Shown: positions 21,879 to 34,458 of the stretch, one piece after another
Layout of the letters: each line of letters begins with the position of its first letter
How positions within the stretch are numbered: position 1 is the stretch's first letter
Source of the DNA: a virus
Strand: one strand, 5' to 3'
Length of the DNA: 34,458 bases
Virus record (IMG/VR): IMGVR_UViG_3300045999_005286
Coordinates: 1-34,458 of that record
Notes under the pieces: model-generated
The model's database searches: none
Seen by the model: the letters and a program-made list of their open reading frames with translations, nothing else
What the model was told of the DNA's origin: nothing
Position numbers and translations under genes: made by a program

Positions 21879-21887
21879 TATTTATTC
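21879..21887 (-). promoter_or_regulatory. Late promoter motif GAATAAATA
   Basis: Minus-strand GAATAAATA overlapping the ThyX stop, 27 nt before ATG 21852. Variant of the late element; lower confidence than the perfect copies. Confidence 0.4.
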
Positions 21888-22601
21888 AATAGTGATAGAA
21901 GGTGCATCAGAGCACTCAGAACATCCTTCACGAGTCCAACCAAGTGCTTCAGATACTGCAGGGAACTGACAGGTAAAGATACAACGTACCAATTCAGCAA
22001 TCTCCATATGTTCCTTCTGTGTACCGTGTGCAGAACGAAGATCGATATAATGTACCCATGACCTTACAGAACCGGTCATATAGAGTCTTGTAGGCGTTGC
22101 CAGGGGCAATACAAACCTCGCACACTCCTTTGCTACTCCCTTCTCTAGAAGACGATTGTAAACCCTCTGAGACTGCTCGAACAAAACGCGAATGTCTTCC
22201 AGCAGTGTGAGTTTCAAATAGTCTGGAAGGTCATCAATCGAGTTCTGGCGATTCTTATCATCTTGCCTGCGAAGTTCAGGAAGGGGAATGGTATTATTCA
22301 AAAGATTAGCATCAGCATATCGTTGGGAAAACTCTTGATATGTGAAACTCCTATGACGGAGTATTTGTGCTGCGATACCCCTTGTAGTATTAATTTCTAC
22401 AGTCATTGAAGCTTGCTCGAAGATACTCCAATGCTGATGCTGAATACAATACTTAAGTAGTCCAGCAAACTTATCGTTCTCTTGATTTGCTGGATTCGAA
22501 ACACGAGCACAGTATGCCATATGTTTTTCTGCATCTGGTGTTACAGACACAAGTTTTACTTCTGGTTTCATGAATTCGAATTCTTCGAAGATCTTATTCA
22601 C
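21882..22601 (-). CDS. thyX: Flavin-dependent thymidylate synthase ThyX
   Basis: 239 aa. ThyX motif RHRxxSxxxxSxR is present as RHRSFTYQEFSQRYADANLL; the FAD/dUMP site is completed by ARVSNPANQENDKFAG and the C-terminal LRSAHGTQKEHMEIAELVRC. It makes dTMP from dUMP with methylene-tetrahydrofolate and FADH2 for phage DNA. The frame begins with GTG 22601, which overlaps the upstream stop (GTGA) and has GGAG 7 nt before it; an internal ATG (MKPEVKLVSV, 22571) is the alternative. The C-terminal CSECSD tail is an addition to the family core. Early metabolic gene. Confidence 0.95.
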   Translation of the reverse strand: MNKIFEEFEFMKPEVKLVSVTPDAEKHMAYCARVSNPANQENDKFAGLLKYCIQHQHWSIFEQASMTVEINTTRGIAAQILRHRSFTYQEFSQRYADANLLNNTIPLPELRRQDDKNRQNSIDDLPDYLKLTLLEDIRVLFEQSQRVYNRLLEKGVAKECARFVLPLATPTRLYMTGSVRSWVHYIDLRSAHGTQKEHMEIAELVRCIFTCQFPAVSEALGWTREGCSECSDAPSITIE

Positions 22602-22840
22602 AGTCCATCTCCATCATCATCGTTTGTAAGTTTATATTTTTGATTTACTCTAATTAAATCTGCAAGTTCATCACCCTCATCATCATAGAACACCTCATCA
22701 TAATCCTCAAGGTAAGGTGCCACTTCTTCATATTTAAGTTCTTGTTTATATGCATCGATATCAGAATATACTTCCGACTTGAGACATTCGACAAGAGACT
22801 CAAGATTCCTAATGATTAACTTAAGTTTCTCTTTATCCAT
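22598..22840 (-). CDS. Acidic small protein, 80 aa
   Basis: 80 aa. N-terminal basic/hydrophobic helix (MDKEKLKLIIRNLESLVECL), then a very acidic segment (YLEDYDEVFYDDEGDELADL) and a tail NDDDGDGL. It resembles other acidic DNA-mimic-like phage proteins but I cannot assign it. It is the first gene behind the composite terminator-promoter at 22864-22903, with ATG 25 nt below the -10, so it and ThyX are probably expressed from a sigma70 promoter. Confidence 0.7.
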   Translation of the reverse strand: MDKEKLKLIIRNLESLVECLKSEVYSDIDAYKQELKYEEVAPYLEDYDEVFYDDEGDELADLIRVNQKYKLTNDDDGDGL

Positions 22841-22863: not shown

Positions 22864-22892
22864 ATTATAGATAAAAAAAAGAGGAGTGTCAA
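22864..22892 (-). promoter_or_regulatory. Sigma70 promoter TTGACA-17-TATAAT, -35 inside a terminator hairpin
   Basis: Minus strand: TTGACA 22892-22887, 17-bp spacer consisting of the terminator's distal arm and U-tract, TATAAT 22869-22864. Both boxes are full consensus. Confidence 0.85.
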
Positions 22893-22903
22893 GCACTCCT
22901 CTT
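22872..22903 (-). terminator. Terminator hairpin with -35 in loop
   Basis: AAGAGGAGTG, loop CTTGA, CACTCCTCTT followed by TTTTTTT on the minus strand (22903-22894 paired with 22888-22879). It ends the small-gene group 22913-23231 and at the same time carries the -35 of the next promoter. Confidence 0.85.
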
Positions 22904-28592: not shown

Positions 28593-29882
28593 TCACCCGA
28601 TGGTTGGTGCTGTCAATGCAACAGGAGTGTTACTAGCAGCAGCAAGATCAAGTGGGAAGTTGTGAGCATTCCTTGTGTTTTAACCTTTGTCGCCAAAGGG
28701 AGCGGACTATATCATCACTCATAAGAGTGTCGGACGCTAGTGGCGTATTACGGATGAAGCGTCATCCACCGCCTAGTCTCTGAACCTTCCTTACACGCTT
28801 GCAAGGCTTGGCTGCTGATTGTCTACAAGAGAGTTCCAGCAATTCATCCGATTTAACGAGCGCCATGCGTTCACAAAACGCTCGTGCATTACCTCCATGC
28901 CCAGTCCAGCACGGTTGAGAACATCAGCCCAGGTATTAACTACACGGTTCTGACTATCAACAATGGACTGATTGAAATTAAAGCCATTCAAATTGAAAGC
29001 CATGGTGCTAACACCAAGAGCAGTAAACCAGATGCCAACTACAGGCCAGGCAGCGAGGAAGAAGTGCAGTGAACGAGAGTTGTTGAACGAAGCGTATTGG
29101 AAGATAAGACGACCAAAGTAACCATGAGCAGCTACAATGTTGTAGGTCTCTTCTTCTTGACCGAACTTGTAACCATAGTTCTGAGATTCGTTCTCGGTGG
29201 TTTCACGCACCAGGGAGGAGGTCACCAGCGAACCGTGCATGGCGGAGAACAGGGAGCCACCGAACACACCAGCCACACCAAGCATGTGGAAGGGGTGCAT
29301 CAGGATGTTGTGCTCTGCCTGGAACACAAGCATATAGTTGAAAGTACCAGAGATACCCAGAGGCATCGCATCAGAGAAAGAACCTTGACCGAAAGGATAA
29401 ACCAGGAATACTGCAGAAGCAGCGGCAACAGGTGCGCTATAAGCAACGCAGATCCAAGGACGCATACCAAGACGGTAGGAAAGTTCCCACTCACGACCCA
29501 TATAGGCATAGATACCAATCAGGAAGTGGAACACAACCAGTTGGAAAGGACCACCGTTGTAGAGCCACTCATCCAGGGAAGCAGCTTCCCAGATGGGATA
29601 AAAGTGCAGTCCAATTGCGTTGGACGAAGGAATAACAGCACCAGAGATGATGTTGTTTCCGTACATGAGTGAACCAGCAACGGGTTCACGGATACCATCA
29701 ATGTCCACAGGGGGAGCACCGATGAAGGCGATGATGAAACAAGTTGTAGCAGCAAGCAGGCAAGGAATCATCAGGACTCCAAACCAACCGACATAAAGAC
29801 GATTATCGGTTGAAGTAACCCAGTTGCAGAACTGTTCCCAAATATTCGATTGTGATTGTTGACGTGAAAGTGTAGCAGTCAT
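28593..29882 (-). CDS. psbA: Photosystem II D1 protein PsbA, split by a group I intron
   Basis: Exon 1 is 29882-28878 (335 codons, [20 protein letters not shown] to [15 protein letters not shown]) and exon 2 is 28670-28593 ([20 protein letters not shown] to APTIG). Spliced protein: 360 aa, the normal D1 precursor length. Motifs are intact: the special-pair His region, [40 protein letters not shown], and ligands to the Mn4CaO5 cluster in GMEVMHER plus exon 2 (H337, D342, A344 in the plant numbering). The unspliced frame adds 28 unrelated residues ([20 protein letters not shown] and on) and stops, losing those ligands. A TTGACA-17-TATGAT promoter overlapping a late motif drives it through a structured leader of about 165 nt. 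Confidence 0.97.
28671..28877 (-). ncRNA. Group I self-splicing intron in psbA (207 nt)
   Basis: Exon 1 ends GAGCGT and the intron carries GCGCTC 15 nt later: a 6-bp P1 with the U.G pair at the splice site. GCATG just before GCGCTC can pair with the start of exon 2 (AATGC) as P10. The group I core is visible: CAGAGACTAGG (P7 5' strand, GACTA) with GATATAGTCC (P7 3' strand, TAGTC). Hairpins GGATGA-CGCT-TCATCC, CACTC-TTAT-GAGTG and CCTTTG-GCGA-CAAAGG (GNRA loop, P9-like) lie in between or after. The intron ends with G before AATGCTCAC. It holds no ORF. Size and site match the known S-PM2 psbA intron (212 nt). Confidence 0.93.
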
Positions 29883-32768: not shown

Positions 32769-33040
32769 TTGTTTTCTCCTTGATAAATGTGTTTTTGTTT
32801 GAGTTCAGGATTAGGTTGAGAAGGAACTATTGGGTTCCTTGATTTATTTTTGATAACGATAAATGCATCGTTTTGGTAAGTCACAGTTCCAAATGGTTTT
32901 GCCCACTTTGGATTTGCGTTTGGACTAGTAGCAGTTCCTGTTACTGCTACACCACCAATCTCAACTGATAGTTCATCATTACTATCCCAGTTTAATTTCT
33001 GGAGGGCAATGGCAAATTGCCCAAGCATATCAGTACTCAC
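32765..33040 (-). CDS. Hypothetical protein, 91 aa
   Basis: 91 aa from GTG 33040 (overlapping the ferredoxin stop as GTGA); an ATG four codons on ([20 protein letters not shown]) is the alternative. Then [40 protein letters not shown] and a basic tail. N-terminal helix plus a beta-barrel-like part. No family recognised. It sits between hli and petF in a photosynthesis-related group, and is coupled to both by overlapping start/stop codons. Confidence 0.65.
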
Positions 33041-33330
33041 AGATTCTCTTCCTGTTCGGTGAGAATTACACAATCGCTTGTGGGATAAGCAACACAAGTC
33101 AGGACCCAACCATCGGCAATCTGGTCATCGTCAAGAAACGATTGCTCCTCATTATCTACGGTGCCAGAGATGAGTTTCCCCGCACAAGCAGAACAAGCAC
33201 CTGCTTTGCACGATGAAGGAAGGTCAACACCTGCTTCCTCTGCTGCTTCCAAAATGTATTGGTCGTCGGGGCATTGGATAGTAGTTTCGGTGCCATCGGG
33301 AGATTGAAGAGTGATGTTAAAAACTGTCAT
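33037..33330 (-). CDS. petF: [2Fe-2S] ferredoxin (PetF)
   Basis: 97 aa, the full plant-type length. Ligand motif [20 protein letters not shown] (C-x4-C-x2-C) and the fourth Cys in [14 protein letters not shown]. Also [13 protein letters not shown] and [12 protein letters not shown]. It accepts electrons from photosystem I and passes them to FNR, bilin reductases or others; in phage it may feed nucleotide reduction or pigment enzymes. ATG overlaps the stop of the 28-aa peptide (TAATG). A sigma70 promoter TTGACA-17-TACAAT lies about 65-90 nt upstream inside that peptide's frame. Confidence 0.95.
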
Positions 33331-33425: not shown

Positions 33426-33635
33426 TCAAACTACTCCAAAGAAGAGGTTGCCAGTGAGAGCATAAGAAATAGCCCCAGCAACAATTCCAATCATGGCCCA
33501 GCGGCCGTTCATTTTTTCTGCCTTCTCAGCATAAGGTTCAATGCCATAACGCTCAAGGTCTTCCTTGGTCATATACATCGAAGGTTCTTTAGCAAACATA
33601 TTCATTTGCCCGAACTCGTTTTTAGTTACAGTCAT
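33426..33635 (-). CDS. hli: High-light inducible protein (Hli)
   Basis: 69 aa. N-terminal polar region MTVTKNEFGQMNMFAKEPSM, then the chlorophyll-binding helix EKMNGRWAMIGIVAGAISYA (ExMNGRxAMxG) and TGNLFFGVV. Typical phage Hli with an extended N-terminus, unlike the 35-aa copy downstream. Binds chlorophyll in the thylakoid and protects photosystem II. Driven by the composite promoter at 33662-33690 with a short leader of about 20 nt. Confidence 0.95.
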   Translation of the reverse strand: MTVTKNEFGQMNMFAKEPSMYMTKEDLERYGIEPYAEKAEKMNGRWAMIGIVAGAISYALTGNLFFGVV

Positions 33636-33661
33636 TTCGCTTTATTACGAATTGTTACACA

Positions 33662-33690
33662 ATTATATAGCAAAAAAGAGGGTCTGTCAA
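33662..33690 (-). promoter_or_regulatory. Sigma70 promoter TTGACA-17-TATAAT, -35 is the terminator loop
   Basis: Minus strand: TTGACA 33690-33685, spacer 17 (terminator arm plus U-tract), TATAAT 33667-33662. Both boxes full consensus. The six-base loop of the terminator is exactly TTGACA. Confidence 0.88.
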
Positions 33691-33699
33691 GACCCTCTT
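33672..33699 (-). terminator. Terminator after pstS with promoter -35 in its loop
   Basis: AAGAGGGTC, loop TTGACA, GACCCTCTT followed by TTTT: 9-bp stem (33699-33691 with 33684-33676) and U-tract on the minus strand, 16 nt after the pstS stop. Confidence 0.9.
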
Positions 33700-33715: not shown

Positions 33716-34458
33716 TTACTGACCGATTCGGTTTACGGCAAGTCGTGCTCGGTTAAGAATAGAACCACTCAAAGGAACATATCCAAGGTCATCGGCAAGT
33801 GATTGTGCTTTAGAACTCAGAGCATAGTTTAATGCCTTACGAATGGCATCAGCATTAGCGCCGTTGCCAGTCTTATATGCAAGAACCCAAGTCAGAGTTG
33901 AAATTGGATATGCAGTTGCACCAGCAGGATTTGGATTTTCACCTGCAAGGTTTGCATCCAGTTTGATACCATTCAATGCGGCAGAACCAGAAGCAGCAGT
34001 AGGAAGAACAAACTTACCTGCCTTATTTTGAATTGCTGCTGCTTGGAGTTTGTTTGCTTTTATAAATCCAGTGTTTACATAACCAATAGAACCTGGGGTT
34101 TGGCGAATGCTACCAGACACACCCTCATTACCTTTAGCGCCAATGCCAGTAGGCCACTTTACAGACTTACCTACACCTGCTTTCCATCCACCAAAAGCAT
34201 CTAGAGAATTAGTGAACGCATAAGTGGTTCCAGAACCATCTGCACGATATACGGTACGAATAGGACCAGCAGCACATCCAAGTGCTTTCCAATCCTTAAT
34301 TCGACCAGCAAAAATATCTACAGTTTGCTTCTGGGTTAGTTTCAGAGTGCATCCTGGTTTGTTATAAGCAACAGCAATCGTTCCACCCACCATAGGAATT
34401 TGAACGACACCACGCTTTACTTTGGCAGCGTCTGCTGAACTGATTGGTTCGTCGCTTG
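33716..34458 (-). CDS. pstS: Phosphate-binding protein PstS (5' end outside window)
   Basis: The frame is open to the right edge, so only the C-terminal 247 residues are seen; the N-terminus with its signal peptide is missing. Periplasmic binding protein features: KRGVVQIPMVGGTIAVAYNK, LTQKQTVDIFAGRIKDWKAL, YRADGSGTTYAFTNSLDAFG (the SGT phosphate-binding loop), GAKGNEGVSGSIRQTPGSIG (GNEGV loop), and YPISTLTWVLAY. Phage PstS scavenges phosphate with the host ABC transporter under P limitation. The terminator that follows carries the promoter for hli. The stop is TGA-type at 33716-33718 region. Confidence 0.95.
   Translation of the reverse strand, partial: SDEPISSADAAKVKRGVVQIPMVGGTIAVAYNKPGCTLKLTQKQTVDIFAGRIKDWKALGCAAGPIRTVYRADGSGTTYAFTNSLDAFGGWKAGVGKSVKWPTGIGAKGNEGVSGSIRQTPGSIGYVNTGFIKANKLQAAAIQNKAGKFVLPTAASGSAALNGIKLDANLAGENPNPAGATAYPISTLTWVLAYKTGNGANADAIRKALNYALSSKAQSLADDLGYVPLSGSILNRARLAVNRIGQ

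Follow-up and report, generated by a model that had tools for sequence, protein, structure and literature searches.

The DNA analyzed here is a 34,458-base virus record from IMG/VR, the whole of which is referred to below as the window. Its gene content resembles that of T4-like cyanophages such as S-PM2, and includes pstS, hli, ferredoxin and thyX genes as well as two photosystem II reaction-centre genes. The element under study lies on the minus strand between pstS and hli, the two neighbors already named in an initial annotation of this DNA. The upstream gene (33716..34458) encodes the C-terminal 246 amino acids of a phosphate-binding protein (Pfam PBP_like_2, E 1.4e-27) and is partial, its open reading frame (ORF) running past the end of the window; the pstS TAA stop codon is at 33718-33716. 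The downstream gene hli (33426..33635) encodes a high-light inducible protein of 69 amino acids without any Pfam match, the orthologues of which are annotated as hli in phage records. The next gene past hli, also on the minus strand, encodes a 2Fe-2S ferredoxin (33037..33330; Pfam Fer2, E 5.2e-24).

Between the end of pstS at 33716 and the start of hli at 33635, the minus strand carries the sequence AAGAGGGTC-TTGACA-GACCCTCTT-TTTT-GCTA-TATAAT (33699-33662), in which two signals are superimposed. The GC-rich hairpin AAGAGGGTCTTGACAGACCCTCTT (33699-33676), which follows a co-oriented gene, shows the signature of an intrinsic terminator: 10 pairs, including 5 GC, with a loop of 4 nucleotides (or 9 pairs with a loop of 6), and a run of six T (33677-33672). 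A sigma70 promoter of the form TTGACA - 17 ± 1 - TATAAT is present with 12/12 matches: the -35 box TTGACA (33685..33690) is the hairpin loop, the -10 box TATAAT occupies 33662..33667, and the 17-nucleotide spacer GACCCTCTTTTTTGCTA (33684-33668) consists of the 3' arm and the U-tract. The folding program preferred the 10-base-pair (bp) stem, in which an extra T-A pair leaves the loop TGAC, with an energy of -15.3 kcal/mol as against -5.55 ± 2.12 kcal/mol in shuffled sequences, none of which equalled it. The nested hairpin and promoter are confirmed to be real. The transcription of hli would be expected to start near 33655. The initial annotation was right as to the position of the element, the TTGACA loop followed by TATAAT at 17 bp (which holds good with the 9-bp stem) and the use of the terminator arm and U-tract as the promoter spacer. 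Two details have to be amended: of the six T described there as following the hairpin, two belong to the 3' arm and four lie past it, and the strand, left unstated there, is the minus strand for every feature. When the window and eight loci were scanned with Rfam, no RNA family matched at the element. A hairpin promoter of the N4 type was dropped by reasoning, since the -35/-10 pair is that of a sigma70 promoter of the ordinary duplex kind and there is no sign of a virion polymerase.

The window contains three perfect promoters with spacers of 15-19 bp, as against 0.10 expected from shuffles, and two of these three lie in hairpins containing the -35 box; 500 first-order resamples of the window yielded no nested elements. 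The second nested terminator-promoter (22903-22864, minus strand) comes after small ORFs and a short gap. It consists of the hairpin AAGAGGAGTG-CTTGA-CACTCCTCTT followed by a T-run (22879..22903), a -35 box TTGACA straddling the loop and the 3' arm (22887..22892) and a -10 box TATAAT at a spacing of 17 bp (22864..22869). It precedes an ORF of 80 amino acids (22598..22840) and the thyX gene encoding the thymidylate synthase complementing protein (21882..22601; Pfam Thy1, E 4.5e-47), and a close copy of it is present in G003. The third perfect promoter (28616-28587) was not counted, its spacer being 18 bp and its fold z -1.96 relative to shuffles; the scan found no such hairpin there.

A genome-wide search for hairpins with TTGACA in the loop followed by TATAAT, which the initial annotation had proposed, was run on the terminators predicted in the window, two IMG/VR records, S-PM2, Syn9, S-SKS1, S-H9-2, S-T4 (up to base 180000), P-SSM2 and S-RIM32 (80001-194437), counting promoters with at least 10/12 matches whose -35 box overlapped the terminator loop. 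Nested promoters were found in 20 of the 183 predicted cyanophage terminators, about 0.5 being expected from the summed per-genome densities. The annotated examples examined lie within gaps between co-oriented genes or overlap the last part of the gene upstream. When the -35 hexamer was permuted, TTGACA scored 20 and the other 179 permutations scored 0.92 on average, the best of them (ATTGAC, 15; CTTGAA, 11) coming from the same loops, either shifted in frame or nearly identical. Under a slightly looser rule, promoters were nested in 22/183 terminators on the same strand and in 3/183 on the opposite strand. None of the 24 terminators of T4 has a -35 box in its loop.

The pattern TTGACA-N7-TTTTT-N5-TATAAT gave at least 121 matches in IMG/VR, 114 of them unique once exact duplicates had been removed, matches less than 30 nucleotides from the end of a locus being left out. 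A strong spanning hairpin, defined as seven or more Watson-Crick pairs (3 GC) enclosing the -35 box, was present at 49 of the 114 unique sites among the matches listed, as against 0.76 in shuffles. It was absent from all 25 unique and usable sites in a complete scan with a scrambled -35 hexamer (43 stretches) and from all 119 sites among the matches listed when TTTTT was replaced by AAAAA, and the same pattern in bacterial genomes gave 2/119 among the matches listed. Since 43 of the 49 hairpin loci contain one or more ORFs related to a cyanophage one (a loose label), this habit is mainly, and perhaps not exclusively, that of cyanophages.

A branched form, GGAGGT-AA-CTGGCAAAATCCAG-TTGAC-ACCTCC-T-run-TATAAT, was found at 13 of the 114 listed sites (L043, L048, L050, L056, L058, L073, L090, L092, L094, L100, L111, L115 and L121). 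It has an inner hairpin CTGG-N6-CCAG (CCCAG in one case) and carries the -35 box in an internal loop; G003 and G004 contain it with TTGACT. The outer arms covary, pair 3 for instance changing from A-T to G-C, the sequence of the inner hairpin looks more conserved than pairing would require, and the upstream gene is hsp20-like in several loci. The hsp20 gap of S-PM2, which has a hairpin and TATACT, was left out of the counts in view of its poor -35 box, as judged by eye, and its fold z of -1.05. In G008, the record of L057, 28 perfect TTGACA-17-TATAAT promoters were noted (198823-198851, for example): in many of them the spacer contains an inverted repeat like GGTAAAACC, which looks like a regulator site common to a promoter family.

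The boundary upstream of hli was compared in the best 80 of 303 IMG/VR loci encoding an hli relative, which include 48 unique promoter windows. A spanning hairpin is present at 52/80 loci and 30/48 unique promoters, and among the isolates it precedes hli in S-H9-2, S-RIM32, S-SKS1 and S-PM2; in S-T4 the hli promoter is present and the hairpin, as judged by eye, is absent. The unique hli hairpins occur in three registers, with the loop TTGACA in 8 cases, TTGAC in 2 and CTTGA in 20. The stem arms vary widely (GAGGGTC/GACCCTC, GGAGGGG/CCCCTCT, AGAGGGG/CCCCTCT), the spacing stays at 17 bp (the covariation analysis took only 17, and another comparison also accepted 16 and 18), and the -10 box of the relatives with a hairpin is TATAAT, TATACT or TATAGT. 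Compensating stem changes from C-G to G-C, from T-A to G-C and from G-C to A-T were found among the hli loci. They extend into the promoter itself: in the CTTGA register, where the -35 box contributes its final base to the stem, TTGACA goes with a T-A pair in 14/20 cases, TTGACC with G-C in 5/20 and T-G occurs in 1/20. When the 3' arms were dealt out at random within a register, pairing fell from 67 to 33.6 in one case (5 of 2000 deals reached the real value) and in the other from 146 to 124.9 (0 of 2000), in a shuffle which ignores relatedness; with this proviso, pairing has been kept by compensating changes, as in intrinsic terminators. Sequence and comparison together establish the two signatures, the way they overlap and recur, and their joint conservation with compensating stem changes.

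In the S-PM2 element (NC_006820, 124300-124338), the upstream gene ends with a TGA codon located within the -35 box (TTGACT), which is itself inside the hairpin: the six bases carry three predicted functions, as stop codon, -35 box and part of the hairpin. The fold z of this hairpin is only -1.75, and its pairing is clear. A different arrangement was noted upstream of hli at L409, L432, L438 and L446, where the terminator U-tract replaces the -35 box (TTGTTT) and the position of TATAAT is unchanged.

The presence of the hairpin is decided by the room available between the upstream gene and the -35 box. Where the stop codon is at least 18 nucleotides from the -35 box, 52 of the 63 loci have a spanning hairpin, seven another terminator and four none, whereas at distances of less than 18 nucleotides none of the 12 loci has a terminator; nor was any terminator found at the five hli loci in which no upstream gene was detected. 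Judging from gene names read from the sequences, the hairpin is present at 19/19 loci with pstS upstream and at 18/23 with a porin-like gene upstream, other genes occurring in the rest. The gap from the upstream stop codon to the -35 box is 25-47 nucleotides among the hairpin loci listed. Seven of the 59 terminators upstream of hli are of an ordinary or partly overlapping type, and no terminator was detected at 21 of the 80 hli promoters.

At L407, which carries the same element, the order as read by eye is a porin-like gene, an ordinary terminator, a match to the Pho-box (CTTA-N7-CTTA), pstS, the element and hli. The pstS gene upstream of the element is probably under Pho control, and a probably phosphate-controlled gene would therefore precede a gene with a strong, apparently unregulated promoter. 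Among the genes listed in the RNA-seq report on S-PM2d in low phosphate (PMC10976474), S-PM2d169, identified by its length and an offset of 9544 bases as the gene that precedes the S-PM2 element, rises by 1.42 log2, and the hli gene immediately following the element does not appear. These listed results fit the existence of a transcription boundary at the element.

The nested terminator-promoter is likely to form a compact, insulated boundary between co-oriented but separately controlled genes of T4-like cyanophages. These phages presumably rely on the polymerase of their host. A host RNA polymerase arriving from the upstream gene (here pstS) would transcribe the inverted repeat, and the RNA hairpin and U-tract would halt it within the spacer of the next promoter. 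In its duplex form, the same DNA would display both boxes, TTGACA and TATAAT, for recognition by the sigma70 holoenzyme, and a free holoenzyme would initiate at the element when the DNA is empty, the transcription of hli and the following genes starting about 20 nucleotides upstream of the hli start codon. The terminator would exclude upstream transcription from hli, whose sigma70 promoter would be built into it. That the hairpin insulates hli from upstream transcription had been suggested in the initial annotation, and this idea fits the comparative data (52/63 where there is room, 0/12 where there is not). We infer that the two signals are active as terminator and promoter, and that insulation and economy of space are the benefits selected for. 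One piece of DNA would be under double selection in this case, as an RNA hairpin and as a duplex promoter, the covariation being visible inside the -35 box itself.

Several points weigh against this picture. The listed S-PM2d genes include hli2, the third gene past the element, which is up by 0.76 log2, a rise that could result from partial read-through, and Pho-box predictions in phage are unreliable according to the tests given in the same report (PMC10976474). None of the 15 Syn9 terminators has a -35 box in its loop. Among the permuted hexamers, the frame-shifted ATTGAC still scores 15, so that the enrichment of promoters on its own is not very sharp, and with scores of up to 14 when TATAAT is permuted, the -10 evidence alone is weaker. 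The hli sample is limited to the best 80 of 303 loci, and the arm-dealing shuffle takes no account of their relatedness.

How far the two signals affect each other is the point on which the alternatives differ. Pure sequence economy, which appears fairly probable, would mean that both signals are fitted into gaps of about 40 nucleotides, the loop being free to hold any hexamer, with no functional interaction. It is contained in the explanation preferred above and differs from it only in denying coupling. It accounts for the short gaps between stop codons and -35 boxes, the absence of the hairpin where room is lacking and the S-PM2 stop codon lodged within the -35 box, and no point speaks directly against it. 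The element geometry, given the size of the RNA polymerase footprint, means that a polymerase in the act of terminating would occupy the promoter: halted in the U-tract, it would cover the DNA from the -35 box to about +1. It could thus occlude the promoter, just as a bound holoenzyme could be a roadblock to the terminator, and the two genes would be negatively coupled. The listed S-PM2d data, in which the upstream gene is induced in low phosphate and hli does not figure (PMC10976474), agree with such interference; plain insulation predicts the non-induction of hli equally well, however, and non-overlapping terminators are tolerated, which leaves interference rather unlikely. The initial annotation had proposed that transcription end and restart are mechanically linked within about 40 bp, the polymerase ending pstS melting the DNA which the next one must bind. 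The terminator and promoter do lie within that distance, but the coupling is apparently unnecessary for the expression of hli, since 7/59 terminators are not of this kind and no terminator was detected at 21/80 hli promoters.

In principle, the two units could be coupled mechanically if the polymerase were handed over after termination. The single-molecule results reported for E. coli RNA polymerase indicate that it mostly remains on the DNA after intrinsic termination and can restart at a nearby downstream promoter (PMC6978380, PMC6978322), the distance being zero here, and cyanophages have retained the nested layout despite the many alternatives available. The terminated host polymerase might accordingly stay and be handed to the promoter beneath it, upstream transcription raising the initiation of hli. 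Those assays were however performed in vitro with E. coli polymerase, and the restarts described by Harden et al. were mostly antisense (PMC6978322). Apart from the hli loci with other terminators or none, the absence of hli from the S-PM2d genes listed as up when the upstream gene is induced (PMC10976474) is the opposite of what simple positive coupling predicts. Recycling of this kind seems unlikely, a little more so than interference. The same doubt attaches to the idea that zero-distance units pass the terminated host polymerase to the next gene, the three-register hairpins and the branched hsp20 form having converged on a -35 box in the loop; if it were true, phage gene order would fix the order of transcription, polymerase by polymerase. 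It is highly improbable that the hairpin acts as DNA, a cruciform hiding the -35 box and serving as a supercoiling switch: the inverted repeat around the -35 box is perfect, but nine-bp arms rarely extrude, and the U-tract, the compensating stems tolerant of G.U, the orientation bias (22 versus 3) and the fact that the hairpins are confined to sites preceded by a gene of the same orientation all point to RNA. Lastly, AT-rich genomes with T-rich spacers would favor both signals, but a chance overlap without any function was rejected as next to inconceivable in the light of the compensating changes across loci and the scan controls, namely the shuffles, hexamer permutations, opposite-strand counts and resamples.

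Neighboring transcription units sharing control DNA have a precedent in E. coli, where the terminator of the frd operon overlaps the ampC control region; unlike the cyanophage element, however, the shared hairpin there works as an attenuator, placed after the ampC promoter, and its loop is not known to hold a -35 box. Terminators near promoters are known: in the E. coli data presented by Song et al. (2024, PMC11347151), 85% of 371 termination sites are at most 1000 bp from a start site. The terminators of E. coli and B. subtilis described there share with the present element the hairpin, the U-tract and the close start site, whereas here the loop is the -35 box, the spacer is made of the 3' arm and U-tract, the overlap is complete, and the arrangement recurs with covariation. 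The recycling reinitiation reported by Kang et al. (2020, PMC6978380) and Harden et al. (2020, PMC6978322) would operate with this geometry, at zero distance; those reports concern in vitro experiments on E. coli, and in the cyanophage element such a coupling would be hypothetical. Song et al. argue, in their discussion of recycling, that it evolved as an adaptation of bacteria and would hardly benefit lytic phages making their own polymerase (PMC11347151); the elements described here occur in lytic phages, the group argued to gain little from it. Predicted promoters and terminators were reported by Sullivan et al. (2010, PMC3037559) to flank all nine of the pstS genes which they examined in cyanophages, and no mention of the overlap between the two was found there. 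Phage morons, as presented in PMC1524935, are likewise added genes with their own promoter and an adjacent terminator, and hli and pstS are host-like accessory genes; in the cyanophage element, however, the terminator comes first and has the promoter within it. The open-licence PMC papers searched, as far as their accessible content goes, yielded no account of a terminator whose loop is a -35 box, nor of one kept in this form by covariation across loci and registers. Promoter and terminator predictions may overlap, which is of relevance to annotators, and the element provides a recurring, easily cloned natural object with which to ask, in cells, whether a released polymerase restarts at the adjoining promoter.

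Elsewhere in the window, two RNA families were detected on the minus strand around the photosystem II reaction-centre ORF at 28791-29882: a group I intron (RF00028, 28683-28917) overlaps the 3' part of this ORF, and a PhotoRC-II RNA (RF01717, 29923-30017) is located upstream of it.
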